Source: Nitrosophilus labii (lineage in GTDB: Bacteria; Campylobacterota; Campylobacteria; Campylobacterales; Nitratiruptoraceae). From it: a DNA stretch of 64,000 nucleotides. Position 1 is the first letter of the stretch. Each line of letters opens with the position of its first letter. The position numbers and the translations under genes are program-made. Of this stretch, positions 31,903 through 49,796 are shown piece by piece. The notes under the pieces were generated by a model. That model searched no databases and was not told the DNA's origin. It saw nothing but the letters and a program-made list of their open reading frames with translations. Location of the stretch: the NCBI RefSeq assembly GCF_014466985.1, contig NZ_AP022826.1, positions 1,302,001 to 1,366,000 on the forward strand. Direction: 5' to 3'.

Positions 31903-34900
31903 ATTTCAATACATCATATGTATCGGTTGAACTTCACCGCTTGGCTCGATATCAAAGCTTATTTAAAATTTCAATACATCATATGTATCGGTTGAACGTT
32001 TTGCTATGTTGCTTATAATAGAGCCGTCTCTTTATTTCAATACATCATATGTATCGGTTGAACGTCTATATTTACAACCTCTTTGCCGTCTATCTCTTCC
32101 ATTTCAATACATCATATGTATCGGTTGAACTGAACCTGAACTGATACTAAAAGGCAGTTTTAAAAAATTTCAATACATCATATGTATCGGTTGAACTTTA
32201 CGACGAGGTCTTGAAAGCCAATATCCATATAGCATTTCAATACATCATATGTATCGGTTGAACTTTAGCGTAGGGTTACAGTCTATATATTCACTTAATA
32301 TTTCAATACATCATATGTATCGGTTGAACCAATTAAAAGAGGCGATATAAAAGAGTTTGTGGATAATTTCAATACATCATATGTATCGGTTGAACAAATT
32401 CGCTCTTCCATCACCTGCCCTTTTCTATTTTATTTCAATACATCATATGTATCGGTTGAACCATATCAATTAAGGCTATCTTGATATTTTCAGGCATATT
32501 TCAATACATCATATGTATCGGTTGAACGAGCCGTAAGCGGCATTTGATAAGGATGTCATTCCGATTTCAATACATCATATGTATCGGTTGAACTTTCATA
32601 AAACGACAAGCGTGTAGGTTGTTTTTGTAAATTTCAATACATCATATGTATCGGTTGAACTTGTTACAATTCCACCTTCTGCATAAGGGGTTATTATTTC
32701 AATACATCATATGTATCGGTTGAACAATTTCATAAAAAAGCAAAAAAAGAGTAAAAATGGAATTTCAATACATCATATGTATCGGTTGAACTATGTTGGA
32801 GGCTATCCATATTGATAACAAGATCAAATTTCAATACATCATATGTATCGGTTGAACATTGGGTAATTTCACTTTGCAATTGTGCATCAAGCATTTCAAT
32901 ACATCATATGTATCGGTTGAACTTGGAAGCTTTAAATAATTTTGATGAAGATATATTATTTCAATACATCATATGTATCGGTTGAACCCAAGTTTTTTCC
33001 TGCTTGCAATAGACAATCCAAGCATTTCAATACATCATATGTATCGGTTGAACCTCTTTGGAGTTTAGAAACTTTAGCACAGGACCTGAATTTCAATACA
33101 TCATATGTATCGGTTGAACATAATAAACTATTTTAATAACTCAAATAATTTTAATTATTTCAATACATCATATGTATCGGTTGAACATTAAAGATGTCCA
33201 GTCATTATTACCTAAAATCAAATTTCAATACATCATATGTATCGGTTGAACACTATACATAGAGAGTTTCTAACTTTTTTTAAAGAATTTCAATACATCA
33301 TATGTATCGGTTGAACATAGAAAGTTTGCCATTGCTTACCCTTTCCACATCTATTTCAATACATCATATGTATCGGTTGAACGTTTCTTAAGTCCACCAA
33401 TACTTGCGCCATATCGACATTTCAATACATCATATGTATCGGTTGAACAAACCTATTCCGATAGTTTTACTGCTGTAAAGACGGATTTCAATACATCATA
33501 TGTATCGGTTGAACGTAACAAGCAGTACTCCACCAGATAATTATAAAGTATTTCAATACATCATATGTATCGGTTGAACCGTTGGAGACACTCTTGATAA
33601 GCTGTTTACTTCAGAATTTCAATACATCATATGTATCGGTTGAACAGTTTTCTTTTTTTCTTTTGTTTTTGTGTAGATGTATTTCAATACATCATATGTA
33701 TCGGTTGAACCCAAAATTACCTGAAGCTCTCCAGCCTATATAAAACATTTCAATACATCATATGTATCGGTTGAACGGTAACCCTGTCCAAGAAGTAGAG
33801 CCAGGTGTGTTATTTCAATACATCATATGTATCGGTTGAACCAGCTTAACAAGTTTAACTGTTTTAGGGATTTATGAATTTCAATACATCATATGTATCG
33901 GTTGAACATTAAACGGTGCGCCGTTGCTTTTCAACCATAACCGATTTCAATACATCATATGTATCGGTTGAACGAGTCAGACGATACAACCAATCAACAT
34001 TTTACAAATATTTCAATACATCATATGTATCGGTTGAACGCACAAACCTCAAAAGAGAAACTTCACCCCAGCATCATTTCAATACATCATATGTATCGGT
34101 TGAACTATCACCCCATGCAGCAGCCGGTCATTATTAAAAGTATTTCAATACATCATATGTATCGGTTGAACTTTCTACCACCCCGATAACTTCATCACGG
34201 TTATGGTATTTCAATACATCATATGTATCGGTTGAACATTGAGTGGTTAATTGCCAAAGGCTTTATGAAGGTATTTCAATACATCATATGTATCGGTTGA
34301 ACGAGCCTATTGCAGAGGCTAATCCAGCCGTAACGCTATTTCAATACATCATATGTATCGGTTGAACTTTGGCACAAATGATCATCGTCAAGTGCCATTA
34401 TGCCCATTTCAATACATCATATGTATCGGTTGAACCTAAGAATACTTAATCCTAATTACAAGAAAATAGCATTTCAATACATCATATGTATCGGTTGAAC
34501 CCGTACTCTCCGAATTGTTCGGTGGCTAACATAATTATTTCAATACATCATATGTATCGGTTGAACTATAGAGATGAAAATAAAAGGCGGGACCATAAGC
34601 AAATTTCAATACATCATATGTATCGGTTGAACCTAAATACCAATGTGAAAAGTGCGGTAGCTTATGGAGATTTCAATACATCATATGTATCGGTTGAACG
34701 AGGGGATAGCTTCTAATTAGAGATTAGAAGTTACCTATTTCAATACATCATATGTATCGGTTGAACTGTATCGGTGGGATATACGATACATGAAATGGTT
34801 ATATTTCAATACATCATATGTATCGGTTGAACCAAATAACACATATTTTTAGACTAACAAGAGACCCATTTCAATACATCATATGTATCGGTTGAACTGA

Positions 34901-36612
34901 ACTGGGCAAAGTTTGTCAAACCGCCTAAAAAAAATTTCAATACATCATATGTATCGGTTGAACTTTCTATATCGCAAGTTATAGGAGCTTCGGTAGGAAA
35001 TTTCAATACATCATATGTATCGGTTGAACAAGTATCTTTATAAAGACTACATAAAGGATTGGCTAATTTCAATACATCATATGTATCGGTTGAACAAGCA
35101 GAATTTAAAGGCGTTGCTGGTTTTTGGTTAAAATTTCAATACATCATATGTATCGGTTGAACAGAATCACAACACAAAAGACCGCCTGCGTTTAAACCAT
35201 TTCAATACATCATATGTATCGGTTGAACCAGATTTAATTGTTGGTATGTGGGGCGGACTTGATCATTTCAATACATCATATGTATCGGTTGAACACAAAG
35301 CTGCTATAAATGGCGCTGGTGCAAACGGATTTCAATACATCATATGTATCGGTTGAACTCAAATATTTTATAGAAGATAGCGAAAAAATACCATATTTCA
35401 ATACATCATATGTATCGGTTGAACACTAAAAGCAAGAAGAGAATCTATCGAGTTTGAATAATTTCAATACATCATATGTATCGGTTGAACTTATGGATAG
35501 CTGGTATAGTAGTGGATATTCTGCTGAATTTCAATACATCATATGTATCGGTTGAACGCAATTGTTCAAGTTGTAGGCGAAAAACTTAAACATATTTCAA
35601 TACATCATATGTATCGGTTGAACTAATGGGCGGCGATATAGACACAACCTATATCACAAATTTCAATACATCATATGTATCGGTTGAACGGAGATAATTA
35701 TAGATATATGTATTTGTATGTAAAATTTCAATACATCATATGTATCGGTTGAACTTAAAAAAACCAGCGCTGTAACATCTATAATCGCTCATTTCAATAC
35801 ATCATATGTATCGGTTGAACGTGCAGACAAGCATATTTAAATATCTAAATGACGGAATTTCAATACATCATATGTATCGGTTGAACAGTTACTGATAAAG
35901 CAGCTTCGCAAGTCAAAAAACTATTTCAATACATCATATGTATCGGTTGAACAAAAAGGCAAGCAAGAAAAAAAACAGGAGCAAAAGAATTTCAATACAT
36001 CATATGTATCGGTTGAACACCATAGCGCTATGTAACCAGGGCACGCCTCTTGTTATTTCAATACATCATATGTATCGGTTGAACCCGTTGATTTTACAAA
36101 CGATACTTACATAGAAACATATTTCAATACATCATATGTATCGGTTGAACAGAATGCTGTCTGAATGTTTGCAAGGCGACAGCGAACATTTCAATACATC
36201 ATATGTATCGGTTGAACACGCAAAGATAGTCATAAGAGCCAAAACGGACGAGGATTTCAATACATCATATGTATCGGTTGAACGATAAAATCTGTGTGCT
36301 GTCTTGCTAAACACATCTATTTCAATACATCATATGTATCGGTTGAACCTTGCACCCCTGCTTCTTCCATCTTTGCCTGAATGAATTTCAATACATCATA
36401 TGTATCGGTTGAACGATTTTCGATACTGCTGTTCCAGTCGCTGTTTTGTTATTTCAATACATCATATGTATCGGTTGAACGCAGAAGCAAGAAAAGCCGA
36501 AAGAGAAAGAGTTAGAATTTCAATACATCATATGTATCGGTTGAACATCAACAATTGTTAATATAGGCGAATAATCAAGGATATTTCAATACATCATATG
36601 TATCGGTTGAAC
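31903..36612 (-). CRISPR. CRISPR array, 72 repeats and 71 spacers
   Basis: A 30-bp repeat recurs 72 times from 31903 to 36583 (starts counted one by one), every 64-68 bp, so spacers are 34-38 nt. On the plus strand it starts ATTTCAATACATC and ends ATGTATCGGTTGAAC. The inner ATACAT-CAT-ATGTAT forms a 6-bp hairpin. Read on the minus strand the repeat ends in ATTGAAAT, the usual type I-B 5' tag, so the array is transcribed like the cas genes with its leader at 36613-36788. The newest spacers are expected near 36550 and the oldest near 31950. No changed repeat was noticed, even at the distal end. Confidence 0.99.
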
Positions 36613-36788: not shown

Positions 36789-38082
<1,294 letters not shown>

Positions 38083-38086
<4 letters not shown>

Positions 38087-38622
38087 TCACCATCTCCACC
38101 AAAAATAAACCATCCAAGTCCAAAACCTGCTAGAAAACTAAGTAATGTCGTATCTGTATTATGTAGCTTTTCTCTTAACTCATCTATCTCTTTAGATATA
38201 TCTAACTCAAGCTGTAAACTTCCCTCGCCCCCTTTTAAAACAATATTTTCAAGCTTGATCAAAAATATGTCGATCTGATTAAGGATTTTGGCAACGATTT
38301 TTTTATAGATTTTTAATACCTCATCATAAGGCTCATATTTTTTCAAACTTTTATAGACACCTTTAAGTTTCTTAACTTCTTGCATAAATTCTTGCAATAC
38401 CTGCTCAATCTCACCAAGAATCTCTTTATCACTGTTATAGGTTTGCATAAATTTTCCAGCAAATTTAGTATTTATAAAATCTTTAATACCTGATAAAATC
38501 TTCTCAAAGTCCATACTTAGTTGCACATAATCTATGTAGTAGTAGCTCTCATAATCACTCAAATCCGCAATCTTTACTCTATACTCTTCAATGAGCTCTG
38601 CCAACTCTATGAAATCATCCAT
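38083..38622 (-). CDS. Coiled-coil protein with C-terminal membrane anchor, inside the cas operon
   Basis: 179 aa, no family recognised. Residues 1-155 are acidic and helical with heptad-like Leu/Ile spacing (EIEQVLQEFMQEVKKLKGVYKSL; ISKEIDELREKLH). Residues about 158-175 form one hydrophobic segment (LLSFLAGFGLGWFIF) with a Gly-rich face, followed by GGDGE. This is a tail-anchor layout with the body in the cytosol. It starts 12 bp after cas4 and ends in an ATGA overlap with cas1, so it is translated with the adaptation genes. It may tether or scaffold the Cas4-Cas1-Cas2 complex at the membrane; that is inference. Confidence 0.75.
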
Positions 38623-38634
38623 TTTAAACCTCTT

Positions 38635-39123
38635 CTAAACGAAACAATACTCATAATAAGCACACTTTTTACACTTTTTATTAAACTCGGGCTTCGGAGG
38701 CGAAGACTTTGCTATAAGCTTTTCTAGATTGTTTATAACTTCAAGGAGCTTTGCTTCGCTCTTTTCGTTCAAAATCACTTCAAAGCGCTTTTTTTCCTGC
38801 CTACTTTTCTCAAAAATCTCCAATCGTCCCTTTTTGACAATCCCCTTTTGCTTGAGTTTATAGAGATAGTAGAGCAATTGCCACTTTGCAGCTTCTAAGT
38901 CGCTATCGCTCTTTTTTACCTCGATAACATAATCTTTTGTTATTTTGTCAAGTTTTATACTTTCAAAACTAACCTCATCGACTCTTGTTTCATTGATCTC
39001 GTGTAAAACTTTTCCGATTCTTACATCTTCGCTATTGTCTTCAAGGTTTATGCGATTTGCGTGAAGCCAGGCTTGCGTCTTGCAGTGAAAGTAGTAGTTA
39101 ATGAGAGTACCGGTGATGTTCAT
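38635..39123 (-). CDS. cas4: CRISPR adaptation nuclease Cas4
   Basis: 162-aa RecB-family exonuclease that trims prespacers and reads the PAM. Four cysteines for a 4Fe-4S cluster: Cys14, then Cys151, Cys154 and Cys160. Nuclease residues His41 (GKVLHEI), Asp59, Glu68-x-Lys70 (VIEVKKS) and Gln82 (KWQLLYYLY) are intact. The ATG overlaps the toxin gene stop by 4 nt, so its translation is coupled to the toxin-antitoxin pair. Confidence 0.95.
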   Translation of the reverse strand: MNITGTLINYYFHCKTQAWLHANRINLEDNSEDVRIGKVLHEINETRVDEVSFESIKLDKITKDYVIEVKKSDSDLEAAKWQLLYYLYKLKQKGIVKKGRLEIFEKSRQEKKRFEVILNEKSEAKLLEVINNLEKLIAKSSPPKPEFNKKCKKCAYYEYCFV

Positions 39124-39506
39124 GGTCTAAAAACTAAAATATCAAGATCATTTAAAAATTTATAGTGTTTATCATTTGCCGCAACAAGTGTTAGTCCATG
39201 TTTGGTACATGTAGCACCTATGAGGCTATCTGCCAACTCCAATGAATGGCTCAAAAAATACTCTTCCATATAATGTGTAGCCTTTGCTGAAATCTCCTCA
39301 TCTATATAGACCACTTTGATATTCCAAGAAGTGATCATCTTTTGAAACTGCTTCAATTCATGCTTGTTTCGCATATCTTGCAAAAGCTCCATATATGTCA
39401 CACAAGAGATAGCAAAATCGATTTTATGAAGCATTTCTCTAGCATTTTCATTTCCACGAAAATACCATATCATTACATCCGTATCAACAAGATAATCATA
39501 TATCAA
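39120..39506 (-). CDS. PIN-domain toxin (VapC-like) inside the cas operon
   Basis: 128-aa PIN ribonuclease. The acidic site is complete: Asp8 (LVDTDVMIW), Glu40 (VTYMELLQ), Asp93 (LELADSLIGATC) and Asp112 (AANDKHY). It pairs with the upstream antitoxin gene, overlapping it by 11 nt. Its stop overlaps cas4 by 4 nt. VapC-type toxins usually cut tRNA or rRNA. Here it could act as an addiction module for the locus or as a fail-safe if the operon is damaged; the context supports but does not prove this. Confidence 0.88.
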   Translation of the reverse strand: MIYDYLVDTDVMIWYFRGNENAREMLHKIDFAISCVTYMELLQDMRNKHELKQFQKMITSWNIKVVYIDEEISAKATHYMEEYFLSHSLELADSLIGATCTKHGLTLVAANDKHYKFLNDLDILVFRP

Positions 39507-39726
39507 ATCTTCTACCTTTTCTCATCTTTCGTACTATCTCATTTACCTCTTCACTCTGATCACGCCACATTCCAAATGCAATATCCTCTTTCTTTTTTTG
39601 CTTATTGAGGCCTATCAACTTCGCTTTAGCTTTACCTCTGTAGGTAATGATAATATCCTCTCCTTTACTTAAAACGTCAAAAATCTCCGCGGTATTAAAT
39701 CGTAAATCTTTCGCTGTTATTTCCAT
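39496..39726 (-). CDS. Phd/YefM-type antitoxin
   Basis: 76 aa. The N-terminal Phd/YefM fold is clear (EITAKDLRFNTAEIFDVLSKGEDIIITYRGKAKAKLI), which binds operator DNA. The C-terminal half (about 45-76) is Lys/Arg/Glu-rich and would wrap the PIN toxin. A GGAGA ribosome-binding site precedes the ATG, unlike most genes in this operon, and a separate promoter with palindromic operator lies just upstream (39739-39780). It is 57 bp downstream of cas3. Confidence 0.88.
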   Translation of the reverse strand: MEITAKDLRFNTAEIFDVLSKGEDIIITYRGKAKAKLIGLNKQKKKEDIAFGMWRDQSEEVNEIVRKMRKGRRFDI

Positions 39727-39783: not shown

Positions 39784-42105
39784 TCACAAGAAGCCAAACT
39801 TTTTATTTTGTTCTTCCATAAACTTATCTCTATCAAACTTATAATCCTCATCGATATACTCCTCAAAATCAGCAAAAAGATATATCCCGCAGCACTCATC
39901 ACTGAATCTATCGAGCTTTTTGACAAATGGAAGATTAAAAGTAAAAAACTGCATATAAAACCAAAGCTTCGATTTTTCTATCTCCTTTTGCGCGTAATTT
40001 TCTATAGCGCTTAGTTCTTTGAGTCTTTGCCAGATCATCTCACCATCCAAATAGCCATCCTCGATATACTCTCTTTCAAAATATCCTCTAAACTCCTCAT
40101 CAATCTTTAAGCGATATGGGAAAAAGATTGTAATACCACTTGAGCGAATGAGTTGCATTTTCTCATAAATCTCTTTATACTCCAATCTTTGCAAGAGTTT
40201 TATAAATTTATCTTTTATAGTTTGCAGCCCGCTATATTTGTTCTTTTTCTCATCAAGTCTTTTAAGCACCACTTCATAACATTTGCCAAAATCTTTTTGC
40301 AAAAAATAGTCTCTAACTTCTTTATTTTGCAAATTTACATCGAGTCTATTGTCTCCTCTATAGATATCTTCAGTTTTGTCATAATTGAAAAAATAGGCTC
40401 TGCCTTTTCTAAGAGCATTTCTATTTATCCTGCCCAAAAACTGTTCATCGCTATCAAAAGTAGATATATCTTTTAGCCCCAGTTCCATATCGATATCCAC
40501 ACCAGCCTCTATCACTTGCGTGGCTACGATGACGATTTTTTCAGCCATCCTTGTACGCTCAATGACCTTTTGTCGAAAGAGTTTATTGTCATCACCGCTT
40601 AGCTCATATACCTCATAGCCATCCAAATCTTTGATATACTCATAAAACTCTCTCGCGCTTCTTTTTTTGATAAACTCCACCAAAACCTTGTTGGCTTCTA
40701 AAACTTTTTCTTTAAGTATCTCAAAATCGATTTTACGATCAAGCAGAGAAAAATCTACTTCCACTCTATCTTTAAAAAGAGGATGTATGAAGTATTTACG
40801 GCTATCAAGCAGCTCTACAAACTCATCTTTTTTCTCAAGAAGTCTATCGATTTTTGGCAGTGTAGCGCTCATTATGATGATCTTGAGATCCAAAACCTTC
40901 GCATAGGCGTTTAAAAACTCCACCATATACCACCAAAGGTTGTTGTCATAACTTTGGATCTCATCGAGGATAATTACGCTTCCATAGAGCTGCCAAAGTG
41001 GAAAGTTCGCCTCTTTGCCTATGCCAAAGAGTATCTCAAAGAGATTGACGTGCGTCGTCAAAATCAGCTCATAATGATAAAAGAGGCGCTGTAGATAGGT
41101 TTTTTCATAGAGATTAGGATCATTCTCTTCATCCAAAGCAATAGGAGTAATAGAGTTGATAACCGCAAAATCAAGAGAACTAAAAATCTCTTCTATCTTC
41201 TCTTTTGTCTGCTCTACTAAAGTATTAAACGGGAAAATATAAAAGATCTTTTTTGGCTCAAGTTTTAGAGCGAGATTGAGTGACATAAGAGTTTTACCTG
41301 CCCCTGTAGGCGCTTGGAGATAAAATATGTTTTTGGATTTATCGAGACTCTTTTGGGACTCCAAAAACATCAGGCTTCTTAGCTTATCGATCTCTTTTTC
41401 ATAGTCTCCTGCTCTGATGTTTCGCACGATCGCAAAATCTTCAAACTCCTCTTTGGCTTTTTTTATATCAAGGAGGCCGAAACTCTCCGTTTTAATATCC
41501 GTCATATACTCCAATGTAGCGTAATAATCGGCACTAATAAGCAGCGAATAGATAAGCTTAATAGCTATGAAAGTCTCGATATCAAAGTAGGAAAAATCAA
41601 GCTCAAACTCTACATACGCACTTCCCTCTTCTTGAAGTTTGCTTTTTAGCTTTTGCACAAACTTTTCAAAATCATCGAGCTTTGCGTGGTGCTTTGATAT
41701 GATGAAGCAAAGAGTCGTAAGCAAAAAAAGCTTTTTGTAAAACTCCTCATCCTCCACCTCGCTTGCCACCTCATCTATATATTTTTCAAAAAACATCTTC
41801 GCACCCAAAAACGAGTGTTTGGAACTCTTTACATCCATCTTTTCATAGGCTTCTTTAAAATCTTTGTTTCCCATCTTTAGATACTGAAAAGCGGGATTTC
41901 TCTTCCCCTCATCATGGGAGACAATAGCATCAAAAATGAGCTTTTTAGCAAACTCCCTATCTTGCAGTTTGAAACTTTCGATGATTTTTTCTAAATCTAT
42001 CTCTTTTTCTTGGAAGATTTTTTGGAGGTATTTTTTGACTAAGGCTTTGTGCTCTTCAAGCTTTTCTGGTGGTTTGGTTGGGTGGGTGTGGGAGAGGATA
42101 TTCAT
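39784..42105 (-). CDS. cas3: CRISPR helicase-nuclease Cas3
   Basis: Target-degrading enzyme of the type I effector. N-terminal HD nuclease with SHDEGKRNPAFQ (His64, Asp65), His97 and His139-His140. Superfamily 2 helicase with QAPTGAGKT (about 264-272), DEIQ box (VIILDEIQSYD), SATLP and the C-terminal QFLGRINR motif. I start at the ATG 42103-42105 rather than an in-frame ATG at 42138: it forms an ATGA overlap with the reverse transcriptase stop and gives 773 aa beginning just before the HD domain (MNILSHTHPTKPPEKLEEH). HD and helicase are fused in one chain. Confidence 0.95.
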   Translation of the reverse strand: MNILSHTHPTKPPEKLEEHKALVKKYLQKIFQEKEIDLEKIIESFKLQDREFAKKLIFDAIVSHDEGKRNPAFQYLKMGNKDFKEAYEKMDVKSSKHSFLGAKMFFEKYIDEVASEVEDEEFYKKLFLLTTLCFIISKHHAKLDDFEKFVQKLKSKLQEEGSAYVEFELDFSYFDIETFIAIKLIYSLLISADYYATLEYMTDIKTESFGLLDIKKAKEEFEDFAIVRNIRAGDYEKEIDKLRSLMFLESQKSLDKSKNIFYLQAPTGAGKTLMSLNLALKLEPKKIFYIFPFNTLVEQTKEKIEEIFSSLDFAVINSITPIALDEENDPNLYEKTYLQRLFYHYELILTTHVNLFEILFGIGKEANFPLWQLYGSVIILDEIQSYDNNLWWYMVEFLNAYAKVLDLKIIIMSATLPKIDRLLEKKDEFVELLDSRKYFIHPLFKDRVEVDFSLLDRKIDFEILKEKVLEANKVLVEFIKKRSAREFYEYIKDLDGYEVYELSGDDNKLFRQKVIERTRMAEKIVIVATQVIEAGVDIDMELGLKDISTFDSDEQFLGRINRNALRKGRAYFFNYDKTEDIYRGDNRLDVNLQNKEVRDYFLQKDFGKCYEVVLKRLDEKKNKYSGLQTIKDKFIKLLQRLEYKEIYEKMQLIRSSGITIFFPYRLKIDEEFRGYFEREYIEDGYLDGEMIWQRLKELSAIENYAQKEIEKSKLWFYMQFFTFNLPFVKKLDRFSDECCGIYLFADFEEYIDEDYKFDRDKFMEEQNKKFGFL

Positions 42106-43901
42106 TTTTCTAATTTCATAATATGATAAAGATACCATTCATCAGAAATATAATTTTTTATTTTTTCAATTAATTGATCTTTATTCGGATTATTACTAAT
42201 CATTGCCATAAATATAAGAAACTTATAAAATGGGTATTGTTTTCCATTTTTATAAACTTCATTAAATAAATAAGAATTAATCTTTTTATCTAAAGATATT
42301 CTTAATATAAGATTTTTAATATTTTTTGCAACAAAAGCACTATTAGGAAATCCATTAGCTATTTGTTCTTCTAATAGATTATCTACATAATCCTTTTTGA
42401 AAAAATAAACTCTAGGTAAAGTAGCTATAACTTGCCTAGATAGAAAAGAATCTTTAATCCATATGTCTCTATTATTTTCTATTAAAGTTAATAATTCATT
42501 ATCTTCACCATATTTCCCATAAAACCATAAATTACAATAAAAACCAAATTTATTTGTTTGTTCATTAATATATCTTCCTTTGAGACTATTAATGAATATT
42601 TGCCCTTTATTATTGTTTGGTATTTTATAATCAACAAGAAACTTTGTTAATATAAATAATGTTAAATCATCATAAAACTCCACATTATGATATAGTGAAT
42701 ATATTGTATCTATTATCTTTTTCGTAAAATTAAAATTGCTTAAAAAATATAATATATGTTGTCGAAAATTAGGCCTACTAATAAAAAGCTCTTTGGCATA
42801 TTTTATAAAATTTTCCGCTTTAATTTTTCCTGCAATTGTAAAAAAACGTTTTGTAACTTTGTCCCAATTTTGGGAAGATACATTTTTTAAATGTTTTCTA
42901 AATAAAATATTAATTTGTTGTCTATCATTTTTCGTTAATGAATTATTTTTTATCTTTTTTTCTATTTCATTAATAAATAAATTTTCATCAACCAAAAAAT
43001 GATATTTAACTTCATCTTGAGAATAAATATTTGTTTTTGCTAAATTAAGTGCCAAACCTCTACTTTTTAAAATATCATTCATACTACCTAAAAATTTTTT
43101 AGCCTCCATTTTATCATTACATCCAATATTTATATCATCCATCCATCGCACAAAATTATCATTTGCATCTTTTTTTAAATACTCATCTAATTCAAAAAGC
43201 ATAATATGTGCCAAAAAACGAATAGCTTCTAAATTAATAGTAGGTAATCCTTTATAAGAATATGGAAGATAATCGGGTTTCCAAGAAAGTTCTTCAATCA
43301 TTTTAAATAATAAATCTAGAATAACTTCTTCTACTCTAACATATCCTGACACAATATGACGCAATTCTTTCAATCCAATGTTATCAAAATAATTTGTTAC
43401 ATCCGTTACAACAAGATATGGATAAGTTTCAGAAAATTTAAAAATCTGTTTTTGAAAACTCTTCCATTTTTCTCTCCATGTGTAATCAGATGTATCATGT
43501 TGGTGTGGTAATTTTAAATCATGTCTATCTCTTGAAAAAAAAGCTTTTTTACTTGGCTGTTCTAATCCTTGTTCAATTATATAATCAATTAAAACTTGAA
43601 AAACTAATGCATCTTTAGGAGTTGGAATCATTAAATGCCGACAAATTCCAAATTTTTTCTCTAATTTATATATTAAAGGTTTATCAGTTTGAAATCTTCC
43701 TTCAATAATTTCATATTTTATATGTTCAGCAATTGTTTCAATGTTATAATTAAAATCATAGTAATCATGGATATCATTAATATCTAAACTTCGCATTTGT
43801 TTTTTTACTATTTTTCTCCAAGTATCAATAAGCCTTTTCTTAGTAAAGACTTTTTCTAAAACTTTTTTTCTTTGTAATTCAAATCTTTTTGTTATATTCA
43901 T
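42102..43901 (-). CDS. Reverse transcriptase embedded in the type I-B cas operon
   Basis: 599 aa. The RT core occupies about residues 60-300: motif 2/3 area MIPTPKDALVFQVLIDYIIE, motif A VVTDVTNYFDNI with Asp167 and Asp173, motif B-like KGLPTINLEAIRFLAHIMLF, and motif C FVRWMDDINIG with Asp255-Asp256 (WMDD instead of YADD). Residues 300-599 are helical without maturase, integrase or Cas1 domains, like the helical extensions of Abi/DRT-type RTs. The ATG overlaps the cas5 stop by 4 nt and the stop overlaps cas3 by 4 nt. The gene looks more AT-rich than cas3. RTs known with CRISPR are mostly tied to cas1 in type III, so this placement is unusual. Confidence 0.93.
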   Translation of the reverse strand: MNITKRFELQRKKVLEKVFTKKRLIDTWRKIVKKQMRSLDINDIHDYYDFNYNIETIAEHIKYEIIEGRFQTDKPLIYKLEKKFGICRHLMIPTPKDALVFQVLIDYIIEQGLEQPSKKAFFSRDRHDLKLPHQHDTSDYTWREKWKSFQKQIFKFSETYPYLVVTDVTNYFDNIGLKELRHIVSGYVRVEEVILDLLFKMIEELSWKPDYLPYSYKGLPTINLEAIRFLAHIMLFELDEYLKKDANDNFVRWMDDINIGCNDKMEAKKFLGSMNDILKSRGLALNLAKTNIYSQDEVKYHFLVDENLFINEIEKKIKNNSLTKNDRQQINILFRKHLKNVSSQNWDKVTKRFFTIAGKIKAENFIKYAKELFISRPNFRQHILYFLSNFNFTKKIIDTIYSLYHNVEFYDDLTLFILTKFLVDYKIPNNNKGQIFINSLKGRYINEQTNKFGFYCNLWFYGKYGEDNELLTLIENNRDIWIKDSFLSRQVIATLPRVYFFKKDYVDNLLEEQIANGFPNSAFVAKNIKNLILRISLDKKINSYLFNEVYKNGKQYPFYKFLIFMAMISNNPNKDQLIEKIKNYISDEWYLYHIMKLEK

Positions 43902-44608
43902 ATTATAAAGATTACCCCTTTCCCCTCATACTCAAAAAACTTTTCACTTCTCCCCTCAACAACCCAACTACTCAAAATCATCTTTTCATATTCATATATC
44001 AAAAACTTATCTTTAAGCCTTACAGGCAGATACTCTTCATAAAAGAAGTTTGCACCAAATCGTGGGGCTTTTTTTAAAACCAAATCATCTTTTTTTGCTA
44101 AAGAGATGCAAACTAAACCGGTCGTTGCCTCTTTTAGCTCTATTTCTTTAACTTCATCGATATTTGCAAAGTGGTCATTTTTTCCAAGATATGGCACATA
44201 GGCAAACTCTTTTTTAAAAAGTCTCTCTTTTAGCTCCCTAAACTCATCACTCTCATTATCCAAAACCAATATCTCCCAAGCGGGATTTTCAAGCCACTGC
44301 TCTCTCACGATCAGATTGCCGCCTTGCTCCTCACTTGCATAGCCTACAGAGTTATTAAAAGTGACGATCTTTTTGGTAAAGTATGGCTTTTGAGGGATGA
44401 TAGAGACTTTGAACTCTTTTAGTTTTTCATAAAACTCCGGTAAATCTCCCTTGCTATTTCCATATCCTTTAAGTCCCAAAATAGAGCCTAAAATACCTAA
44501 TAGCGCCACTTTATGGATATGAGAATAGGTGAAATAGGTATGGCTATTGACATCAGGCTTTTTGAAGTGTGCGAATCTACCGCTTAAATTAAAACTAATT
44601 GCTTTCAT
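43898..44608 (-). CDS. cas5: Cascade subunit Cas5 (type I-B)
   Basis: 236-aa RAMP-fold protein that binds the crRNA 5' tag in the effector. The N-terminus KAISFNLSGRFAHFKKPDVNSHTYFTYSHIHKVALLGILGSILGL matches the Cas5 Hmari/I-B form, with the aromatic-rich loop and the following Gly-rich helix. Its ATG lies 14 nt inside the DUF1016 nuclease gene, and its stop overlaps the reverse transcriptase start by 4 nt. Confidence 0.93.
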   Translation of the reverse strand: MKAISFNLSGRFAHFKKPDVNSHTYFTYSHIHKVALLGILGSILGLKGYGNSKGDLPEFYEKLKEFKVSIIPQKPYFTKKIVTFNNSVGYASEEQGGNLIVREQWLENPAWEILVLDNESDEFRELKERLFKKEFAYVPYLGKNDHFANIDEVKEIELKEATTGLVCISLAKKDDLVLKKAPRFGANFFYEEYLPVRLKDKFLIYEYEKMILSSWVVEGRSEKFFEYEGKGVIFII

Positions 44609-45626
44609 TTTTTGCCTCTATTTTTTGCAACTGGCTTTCTATCTCTTCAATTGATGGCAAAGTATTTTTTAGCTCTTTTGGAAGCTCTTTAAAAAGTTTA
44701 TATTCACTAACTCCTATTGGTTTTTCTATACTGTTTAAAGCATACTCTACAATGGTATTATTTTTTGATTTACAAATGAGTATGCCTATAGTTGGATTGT
44801 CATCATCGCTTTTTATCTCTTTATCAACTGCTGTTATGTAAAAGTTTAATTTTCCTGCATATTCAGGCTTAAACTTTGTAGTTTTTAACTCAATCACTAC
44901 AAAACACTTTATTAGTTTTATGTGATAAAAAAGCAAATCTATAAAAAACTCCTCTCCTGCAATTTCTAGCCTGTATTGTCTGCCTACAAAAGCAAAACCG
45001 CTACCAAGTTCTAAAAGAAAATTGGTTAGATGATCCATCAAAGCATTTTCAAGCTCTTTTTCATTATATTTTTCATTCAAACTTAAAAAATCAAAACAAT
45101 ACGGATCTTTTGTAATCTCTTTTGCCAAATCGGACTGAGGAGCAGGTAGCTTTTTGTCAAAATTGTTTATTGCTTTTTTGCTTCTACTGTATAAATCACT
45201 TTCTATTTGATGCACTAAAACTGCTCTTGAGTATCCATTTTCAATAGTTTTTTTTACATAAAAGAGTGCTTCTTCAATAGTTTTACACTTTGTAATTATT
45301 ACAATATTATGACCCCAAGGTATCTGAAAAATTTGGGCAACAACTTGTTGCCCTTTTACCCAGAACAAATACCATTGCTTCATATACTTTAAGTTTCTAA
45401 CTGAAAACCCCTTTAAATTTGGAAACTCTTGCTTTAAATCTCTACTTATTTGCTCAATTATCCCATCACCCCAAGAAGAGCTTTTTTGTTTATCTACAAT
45501 CATTTTTGCAATATCCCAATAAAGCCGTAAAAGTTCCTCATTTACTTTTATAGCTGCTTTAATTTGAGCTTGTCTGATCTTGATTTTTATATCACTAATA
45601 AATGATATATACTCTTTATCTAACAT
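44595..45626 (-). CDS. DUF1016 / PDDEXK nuclease-like protein between cas7 and cas5
   Basis: 343 aa, YhcG family. The N-terminal DUF1016 domain (KAAIKVNEELLRLYWDIAKMI, then SWGDGIIEQISRDLKQEFP and FSVRNLKYMKQWYLFW) precedes a PDDEXK nuclease domain with Asp230 (FFIDLLFYH) and Glu246-x-Lys248 (VVIELKTTKFKPEYAG). The catalytic triad is intact. Such proteins occur as solitary genes near restriction systems and mobile elements. Here the gene starts 9 bp after cas7 and overlaps cas5 by 14 nt, so it splits the Cascade genes yet stays in the operon. It may be a prespacer or target nuclease, or a passenger. Confidence 0.88.
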   Translation of the reverse strand: MLDKEYISFISDIKIKIRQAQIKAAIKVNEELLRLYWDIAKMIVDKQKSSSWGDGIIEQISRDLKQEFPNLKGFSVRNLKYMKQWYLFWVKGQQVVAQIFQIPWGHNIVIITKCKTIEEALFYVKKTIENGYSRAVLVHQIESDLYSRSKKAINNFDKKLPAPQSDLAKEITKDPYCFDFLSLNEKYNEKELENALMDHLTNFLLELGSGFAFVGRQYRLEIAGEEFFIDLLFYHIKLIKCFVVIELKTTKFKPEYAGKLNFYITAVDKEIKSDDDNPTIGILICKSKNNTIVEYALNSIEKPIGVSEYKLFKELPKELKNTLPSIEEIESQLQKIEAKNESN

Positions 45627-45635
45627 CTTTTAGCC

Positions 45636-48140
<2,505 letters not shown>

Positions 48141-48148
<8 letters not shown>

Positions 48149-48854
48149 CCCTCGCCCTTACTACCATTCCAAAACCTAAAGGATTTTTCTCTAATATTCC
48201 TACACCGAAACTAAGTCTTGCCAATTTTTGACTAACTTCATCACTATTAAAACCGATTTGAAATCTATTGGCAAAGATCTTTCCGCCTTTATAGTTAAAA
48301 ACTAGCGGCTTTTGGTTCACTACCTTAAAAAAGCCGACCATATCACTAGGGGCTTTTACGCTTTTTTTAAAAAACTCGATATACTTCTTTTCAAGGTTAT
48401 CCACAATTCGTTTTTGAAGTAAAAGCGGGTCATCCTCAATAGTCCAGTATCTAATCTTTCCATTTTGATCCGTTATGGTTAAAACAGCCGGGGTGATTGT
48501 ATATATTTTATCGATATAGCTTAGTTTTAACTCTCTAGATTTAAAACCTTCAATATCAAAATCAAGATTTGTAGTTTTTTTAGAAGCTTTATAAAACTCG
48601 CCAACTACCGCCTCTTCTATAGTTCTAAGCGTTAGAGTGTAGATAGCATCTTGTTTATAAACTTTCTCTTTTTTATTTACCGGATATAAACTACCTACAA
48701 CGTAAGGTTTAAAACCTCTCTTTTCGTGTAGGGCTCTTAATATAGTGGAGTTGTAAAATATATAATTTACATTTTTAGAAACAAAGTTTATATAATCTTT
48801 AAAGGGGAGATCTTTTTTCAGGCGAATTTTTATTTTCAGCTCATGTATTTGCAT
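48141..48854 (-). CDS. cas6: Pre-crRNA endonuclease Cas6
   Basis: 237-aa processing nuclease and first gene of the cas operon. The C-terminal Gly-rich loop SFGVGILEKNPLGFGMV is the family hallmark. A candidate catalytic His44 is in RALHEKRG. It should cut at the base of the 6-bp repeat hairpin, leaving the ATTGAAAT 5' tag. The ATG is preceded by a weak ribosome-binding site. The 177 bp upstream are AT-rich and have no clear consensus promoter. Confidence 0.92.
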
Positions 48855-49031
48855 ATTTTCTACCGTTATATAGAGATAATTTATTTTAATAATTAGACTT
48901 TTAAAGATATATTAAACTAATAACAAAAATAAAAATATTTGAAGATATGAAACGTGATAGGATTTTTTAATATTTAGTCAAACTTACATTTATGGAAGAG
49001 CACATAGTGGTAGAAGATTTAAAAAGTTTTT

Positions 49032-49796
49032 TTAGAGTTTAAATCTTGTTTTGTCAAAAAACGTATCGTCGTGAATGTGTCTAAAGGAAGCTTTGATATA
49101 TTTCATAACGTCGGGAAATCTCTTTTCCAAATCTGCCACAAACTCTTTCATATTTTCCCTAACATAAGGCTCTTTTATATCAAACCTCATCGCAGGGCAC
49201 ATCTCGTCTCCGATCGCGAAAAAGTTATTTCTCTCCACAAAACCTCTTAGCTGTCGCTCTCTAACTTCTATCAATGGCCTTATAACATACAATCCTCTTT
49301 CCGTTTTGTAAATAGGCGGCATACTTCTCATCGCACCGTTATAAAACATATTCATAAAAAAACTCTCTACGGCATCGTCAAGATGATGTCCAAGAGCCAA
49401 CTTGTTAAAACCGTTGTTTAGAGCGTACGTATAAAGAGCGCCTCTTCTCATCCTTGAAAAAAAGCTGCAGTACGAAGAGTTTTTTCTTATTTTCTCTTTT
49501 GCTATATCAAAAATCTCAGTCTCGTAAACCTCATAATCTATACCAAACTCTTCGCAATGCTTTTTTAAATGTTCATAATTTTCCCCCATACCGTAACTGA
49601 CGGTAACCGCTTTAAAGTAGAAGTTATAAGGAGCTACTCTTTGTATATGTTTTAACGCATGTATTAACGTTAGAGAATCTTTTCCGCCGCTTAAACCGAC
49701 TAAGACTCTATCTCCATCTTTTAAAAGTTCAAACTCAAAGTTTGTTTTTGCTATCTGTTTGATTAACTTTTTAGTAAATTCCGCTCTTTTCATCAT
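49032..49796 (-). CDS. TtcA-like tRNA thiolation ATPase
   Basis: 254-aa PP-loop ATPase with SGGKDS at residues 36-41. TtcA makes 2-thiocytidine in tRNA using a 4Fe-4S cluster held by three cysteines. Here Cys110 (SYCSFFSRMRRG) and Cys200 (GDEMCPAMRFD) match two of them, but the second cysteine of the usual CxxC is Phe113. It sits where Cj0118 sits, after mtn, with a 4-nt overlap. The fold is certain; whether it is a true TtcA is less so. Confidence 0.8.
   Translation of the reverse strand: MMKRAEFTKKLIKQIAKTNFEFELLKDGDRVLVGLSGGKDSLTLIHALKHIQRVAPYNFYFKAVTVSYGMGENYEHLKKHCEEFGIDYEVYETEIFDIAKEKIRKNSSYCSFFSRMRRGALYTYALNNGFNKLALGHHLDDAVESFFMNMFYNGAMRSMPPIYKTERGLYVIRPLIEVRERQLRGFVERNNFFAIGDEMCPAMRFDIKEPYVRENMKEFVADLEKRFPDVMKYIKASFRHIHDDTFFDKTRFKL

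Follow-up and report, generated by a model that had tools for sequence, protein, structure and literature searches.

Reverse transcriptases (RTs) associated with clustered regularly interspaced short palindromic repeats (CRISPR) in type III and type VI systems are group-II-like enzymes that are fused or adjacent to cas1, and they occur mostly in type III (PMC5541045, PMC6753606). In addition, two cases cited in PMC8934634 concern type I systems: Haemophilus haemolyticus has an Abi-P2-like RT in a type I-C locus, and in Streptomyces RTs occur with type I-E. Here, we analyzed a stretch of 64,000 nt of Nitrosophilus labii (GCF_014466985.1, NZ_AP022826.1, positions 1,302,001-1,366,000 of the forward strand; the whole stretch is referred to as the window), in which a gene encoding an RT of 599 amino acids (aa) is located between cas5b and cas3 of a type I-B operon. 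The RT was assigned to UG13a, which is reportedly included in the UG/Abi family as surveyed by Mestre et al. in 2022. It resembles RT-Cas1 in being encoded within a CRISPR-cas locus, however, it is a UG/Abi enzyme of a type I-B system that adjoins cas3 and shows nothing that would point to adaptation as its role. With the Haemophilus and Streptomyces RTs, as that source presents them, it has in common that a non-group-II RT is situated near type I cas genes, but those belong to other RT families and other subtypes. Immune systems recurrently acquire genes (PMC12799240). We consider it likely that the RT is a captured autonomous UG13a enzyme which is co-expressed as a second defence arm and is not a component of the CRISPR system; that it represents cargo of the operon is, taken by itself, highly probable.

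The PADLOC model RT_UG13a matched residues 4-595 of the 599 residues (E=3.5e-207, 688 bits), compared to 138 bits for the second-best family. A phylogenetic tree, into which RT-Cas1 proteins of other Campylobacterota and other UG families were taken and from which retron RTs were left out, placed the RT within the UG13a clade (51 members, Shimodaira-Hasegawa-like approximate likelihood ratio test 99) and apart from RT-Cas1. It formed the first branch of an inner clade of 23 (support 100) together with 22 UG13a RTs of many phyla, among them Bacteroidota, a Bacillus, a Leptospira plasmid, Chlorobiota and Nitratifractor; the mixed hosts in the UG13a clade point to horizontal spread. Identity to 47 UG13a members ranged from 25 to 44%. 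The catalytic aspartates D167 (in VVTDVTNYFD) and D255-D256 (in RWMDDI) were invariant across 48 UG13a sequences, indicating an intact catalytic triad, and the open reading frame (ORF) and the C-terminal residues were likewise found intact and conserved. The Pfam scan returned RVT_1 alone, and the NCBIfam group II RT/maturase model, whose cut-off is 300 bits, scored only 64. By these sequence criteria the RT is a full-length UG13a enzyme, and a preliminary description of an Abi/DRT-like RT with an intact active site and lacking maturase and Cas1 domains proved correct. Three other identities were rejected: a CRISPR adaptation RT of the RT-Cas1 type, as the enzyme is neither group-II-like nor fused or adjacent to cas1 and groups elsewhere in the tree; a group II intron, as maturase domain, Rfam match and intergenic space are all lacking; and a retron, on the score of the UG13a model, with neither an Rfam match nor intergenic room for msr-msd. 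No homologues of the RT were found in phage records; viral contigs contained three distant ones.

UG13a relatives were gathered by alignment search, a single-protein scan of genome contigs having given none. A total of 61 UG13a loci from many phyla were searched (0.98 Mb; ≥5 kb of sequence was available on either side in 34/61), and neither CRISPR arrays nor homologues of the Cas proteins encoded in the window were present in any of them. As only the latter served as queries, distant Cas variants may escape, yet the absence of cas genes is supported by the absence of any array. No neighbour recurred at these loci beyond promiscuous ATPases and near-identical pairs, and at many of them the neighbours were genes on the opposite strand. 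Among 397 Campylobacterota genomes, one other full-scoring UG13a RT was present, with no cas gene on its visible side. Judged by their neighbourhoods, UG13a RTs are normally stand-alone. They share the RT core, the helical C-terminus and the full-length match with the window RT, but the members found elsewhere lie outside CRISPR loci, whereas the window RT is embedded in a cas operon and overlaps each of its neighbours by 4 nt. The preliminary description had regarded the RT as wired into CRISPR, a view that is contradicted by the 0/61 UG13a loci with cas genes or array, by a sister operon devoid of the RT and by the changing occupants of its position. It had also named, as speaking against its own view, a place in an intron or retron clade with no other genome sharing the gene order, or a recent lone insertion; the RT does behave as a lone insertion, and no second genome with the order cas5-RT-cas3 was found, but its place in the tree is neither intron-like nor with RT-Cas1.

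The position of the RT was then compared among operons of one phylum, the Campylobacterota, comprising 18 operons including that of the window, plus the operon of G406, a genome of the same genus; some of them were ended by contig ends. G406 shared 91.5% DNA identity over window positions 43914-49589, from a PP-loop ATPase gene (49589) through cas6-cas8-cas7-yhcG-cas5. The identity broke off 13 bp short of the cas5 end, from where a GmrSD_N gene (PF03235, 1.8e-23) replaced the RT; GmrSD is a type IV restriction system. A search of the remaining G406 assembly did not reveal the RT either, and the G406 cas1 was 97% identical to that of the window. In the next relatives, with Cas8 62-65% identical to the window protein, the cas5|cas3 junction was occupied by HsdM-HsdS-orf347-OLD-like ATPase, i.e., a type I restriction-modification (RM) system with an OLD-like ATPase (G006), by a 778-aa NERD/SEC-C protein (G004) or by a 795-aa SIR2-nSTAND3 protein (G040), or it was empty with cas5 adjoining cas3 (G056). 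The window and these five genomes were joined at 100/100 in the Cas8-7-5 tree. Cargo at cas5|cas3 occurred in 5/6 operons of this clade versus 1/11 more distant operons (Fisher p=0.005), the single distant case being a ParE-like pair in G302, and the cargo proteins had no similarity to each other. Cas5 C-termini and Cas3 N-termini were intact in all compared operons, indicating that the insertions were scarless. As read from these sequences, the cas5|cas3 junction of this lineage is an exchangeable slot for defence genes with the RT as one tenant among many, and the stand-alone relatives together with the unrelated defence genes at the same junction mark the RT as an interchangeable occupant. 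As in other cas operons with nested defence or accessory genes, unrelated defence genes join an existing defence operon, however, here five unrelated systems among close relatives use one precise junction. No description of such a slot was found in the literature searched, outside of which lies the UG/Abi survey. PADLOC models matched in the operon comparison were ATPase_I-A, HNH_I-A and ATPase-Toprim_I-B.

The ATGA overlaps of the RT gene with cas5b and cas3 are present as previously described, an arrangement by which the RT gene would be transcribed together with the Cascade genes and cas3 and translationally coupled to them. The cas3 start used (MNILSHTHPTKPPEKL) agrees with the Cas3 N-termini of relatives (MFSHIHPTKSPEKL, MNQFDIFSHLHPSKPPELL), which an alternative start giving a 784-aa ORF does not. 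On the strand of the RT gene, no strong promoter-like site was found directly ahead of it, suggesting that the RT would be produced from the Cascade transcript. We propose that a stand-alone, single-gene UG13a RT was captured without scars at cas5|cas3 of the type I-B interference operon, with both its start and its stop coupled, and that it would be expressed by read-through and ATGA-mediated translational coupling. The RT would then act as a separate second defence arm and, judged by fold and domain plan, most likely in the manner of the Abi polymerases (AbiA, AbiK, Abi-P2, DRT4/DRT6/UG15). Upon infection, DNA would be synthesized in the cleft that separates the RT core from the helical domain; this synthesis would need no RNA template encoded elsewhere, its product would probably be attached to the enzyme, and the infected cell would be arrested as a result. 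The preliminary description had offered a second defence arm co-regulated with CRISPR as one of three options, and a second arm expressed together with CRISPR is what our results are consistent with and favour; its position in the operon might add regulation.

An AlphaFold2 model built from 48 sequences (mean predicted local distance difference test 89.4, predicted template modelling score 0.89) consists of an RT core (residues ~1-295) and a helical domain (~295-599) with helices throughout ~295-598, matching the helical C-terminus of some 300 residues noted before. In a Foldseek search of the PDB, AbiA and AbiK were the top matches at near full length, followed by DRT4, Abi-P2, UG15 and DRT6, and group II RTs matched the RT core. 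These Abi and DRT enzymes also have two lobes, an RT core and an all-helical C-terminal domain, but their identity to the window RT is 12-15%, and at the position known for the priming tyrosine no conservation was seen. Class 1 UG/Abi RTs carry out template-free, protein-primed DNA synthesis (PMC13275509, PMC9508834), and the fold and the domain plan, with a helical, HEAT-like C-terminal domain, favour this mode. As a conserved priming tyrosine was not located, self-primed DNA synthesis without external template is our best guess for the RT, with the chances about evenly balanced. The Rfam search for non-coding RNA (ncRNA) at the RT gave no match, and as both neighbouring genes overlap the RT gene by 4 nt, there is no space for a flanking ncRNA. 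An ncRNA-templated mode as in class 2 DRT systems is disfavoured by the lack of an adjacent ncRNA gene, although an RNA encoded inside an ORF or elsewhere might be involved. The flanks of the stand-alone UG13a relatives contained no family-wide conserved stretch, conservation being confined to the start region and to near pairs. In two Flavobacteria, the UG13a RT is directly preceded by a stretch of ~130 bp that recurred 650-795 bp upstream of a third RT (L039, L044, L048).

Several points weigh against the proposed capture of an autonomous Abi-like enzyme. In G406, the contig breaks off within GmrSD and the assembly lacks cas3, so that the slot is visible there from the cas5 side only. The whole-chain template modelling scores to Abi structures were ~0.4-0.5, by which the fold class is clear but not the chemistry. 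The α2-α3 loop, the priming site of AbiK and Abi-P2, has no invariant tyrosine: Y47, Y48 and Y52 are present in the RT but none is conserved across UG13a, the position of Y48 being tyrosine in 23/47. Experimental defence data for UG13a were not found in the literature searched, again with the UG/Abi survey lying outside it. The coupling to Cascade and Cas3 could reflect some functional dependence. Finally, the GC content of the RT gene is 23% versus ~36% in the flanking cas genes, a foreign composition that speaks for the capture, but low GC is general to UG13a genes, and the insertion cannot be dated from it alone. Low GC was rejected as proof of a very recent arrival on the same grounds. UG13a RT genes were nearly all GC-poorer than the surrounding locus (L032-L101, with loci of 31%-67% GC; L039 near-equal).

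Of the other functions considered, the one closest to RT-Cas1 of type III would have the RT copy transcripts into complementary DNA for integration by Cas1-Cas2, for which speak its intact active site and the presence of cas1, cas2 and an array of 72 repeats in the same locus. We regard this as very improbable: the RT is no group-II-like enzyme and is separated from RT-Cas1 in the tree, its gene belongs to the interference half of the operon and is distant from cas1, none of the other UG13a RTs was located near detectable cas genes, and sister G406 does without it in spite of its near-identical cas1. Spacers matched nothing in phage records and gave two matches in genomes of the same family, one to a prophage-like early gene of G257 of the same genus and one to an integrase gene of G401 of the same family; these are ordinary DNA mobile elements, although two matches decide nothing. 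Both spacers, 31933-31967 and 32330-32365, are located far from the presumed leader. It appears equally remote that the RT synthesizes DNA at Cascade/Cas3 targets to repair, tail or amplify degraded invader DNA. Its gene is adjacent to and coupled with cas genes, and Cas3 yields single-stranded DNA and 3' ends, but in clade relatives the same junction holds a restriction enzyme, an RM system or a SIR2-STAND protein, and UG13a is without cas genes everywhere else it was found. RNA-derived spacer acquisition and DNA synthesis at targets had been the other two options of the preliminary description, and neither gained support.

Cascade-dependent autorepression (CreR) and back-up suicide triggered by anti-CRISPR proteins (CrePA) have been described for other CRISPR systems (PMC12737573). 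By this precedent, Cascade might autorepress the operon, and an anti-CRISPR protein would derepress the RT and YhcG cargo and so kill the infected cell, and several slot occupants indeed belong to families for which a toxic, abortive or restricting action is known or predicted. However, no CreR-like repeat was present in the window outside the array at <11/30 mismatches, a search that a degenerate element could escape, and we consider such a back-up weapon unlikely. Neutral hitch-hiking, in which the RT is selfish or accidental cargo drawing no benefit from its position, would fit the wide spread of UG13a genes among phyla and the foreign composition of the gene. It is quite improbable in view of the intact ORF with conserved catalytic and C-terminal residues, the sparing of both neighbours with the coupling kept, and the repeated occupation of one junction by defence-type genes, which is unlikely by accident.

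The exchangeable slot is of more interest than the RT itself. Gene neighbourhood is the main argument for calling proteins CRISPR-associated, and that a seemingly built-in RT proves exchangeable is a warning for claims of RT-CRISPR association; by analogy, slot turnover may also explain the H. haemolyticus type I-C and Streptomyces type I-E cases, as far as that source presents them. Cas operons may offer a platform for the expression of other defence systems, which gather at a junction that is fixed and coupled, and the slot points to the UG13a RT, GmrSD, the NERD-domain protein, SIR2-STAND and RM with the OLD-like ATPase as candidate systems. It further poses the concrete question of whether co-expression with Cascade provides synergy or a back-up triggered by anti-CRISPR proteins. 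That the slot is a functional design, in which type I-B operons of this lineage carry a rotating, translationally coupled defence gene that is released or derepressed when interference is blocked, e.g., by an anti-CRISPR protein, and forms a swappable second stage, is conceivable but doubtful. If true, CRISPR and an abortive system would constitute a two-stage defence, with the UG13a RT as the second stage here.

All components of a type I-B system are present (cas6-cas8b-cas7-cas5b-cas3 and cas4-cas1-cas2 with array), and the operon has the order cas6-cas8b-cas7-yhcG-cas5b-RT-cas3-(phd-pin)-cas4-orf179-cas1-cas2-array (Table 1). Besides the RT it contains four non-cas genes, namely yhcG, phd, pin and a gene for a 179-aa protein; yhcG and the Phd/PIN pair, which were absent from the preliminary description, matter for the interpretation.

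Table 1. Features of the type I-B operon and its cargo genes; positions refer to the window.
Feature	Position	Strand	Support
cas6	48141..48854	-	PDLC01784 E=6e-60
cas8b	46514..48148	-	PDLC01507 E=1.2e-120
cas7b	45636..46517	-	PF05107 E=7.7e-33
YhcG/DUF1016 PDDEXK nuclease (PDC-S02), defence cargo between cas7 and cas5	44595..45626	-	
cas5b	43898..44608	-	TIGR02592 E=5e-46
ATGA overlap, cas5b stop / RT start	43898..43901	-	sequence
UG13a (UG/Abi family) RT, 599 aa	42102..43901	-	ORF; PADLOC RT_UG13a; tree; AlphaFold2 model
ATGA overlap, RT stop / cas3 start	42102..42105	-	sequence; Cas3 N-terminus homologous to relatives from that ATG
cas3 (HD + helicase)	39784..42105	-	PDLC01758 Cas3b E=1.5e-223
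Phd/YefM-type antitoxin, cargo between cas3 and cas4	39496..39726	-	PF02604 E=5.6e-7, just below Pfam cut-off
PIN-domain toxin	39120..39506	-	PF01850 E=5e-14
cas4	38635..39123	-	TIGR00372 above cut-off
179-aa protein between cas4 and cas1	38083..38622	-	no convincing family match
cas1 (type I-B), no RT fusion	37091..38086	-	TIGR03641 389.6 bits
cas2	36789..37094	-	TIGR01573 above cut-off
CRISPR array	31903..36612	-	72 identical 30-nt repeats, 71 unique spacers of 34-38 nt

A sigma-70-like promoter (12/12) at 36770-36741 on the cas2 side of the array suggests that the array is probably transcribed on the minus strand. Another such site (11/12) was located at 39780-39752 directly after cas3 and ahead of the Phd-PIN pair, and the adaptation genes may have a transcript of their own. 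A counterpart of yhcG with 93% aa identity occupied the same place in G406, and the other relatives had no yhcG there. Further junctions of related operons also contained additional genes. Septu-like PtuAB was encoded between cas8 and cas7 in G302, with related pairs in G202 and G044, all in more distant Campylobacterota type I-B operons (L125, L127, L128). The cas7/cas5 junction of G044 contained Fic, and GNAT or Bro-N genes were located between cas3 and cas4 in G393 and G234. A metallo-beta-lactamase-fold protein was encoded at another junction of the G004 operon, and different genes of unknown function (88 and 331 aa) lay between cas4 and cas1 in G040. In the G006 operon, cas1 was broken by several stops (L121 14255-15086), and the effector genes and the large RM/OLD-like cargo appeared to be intact.

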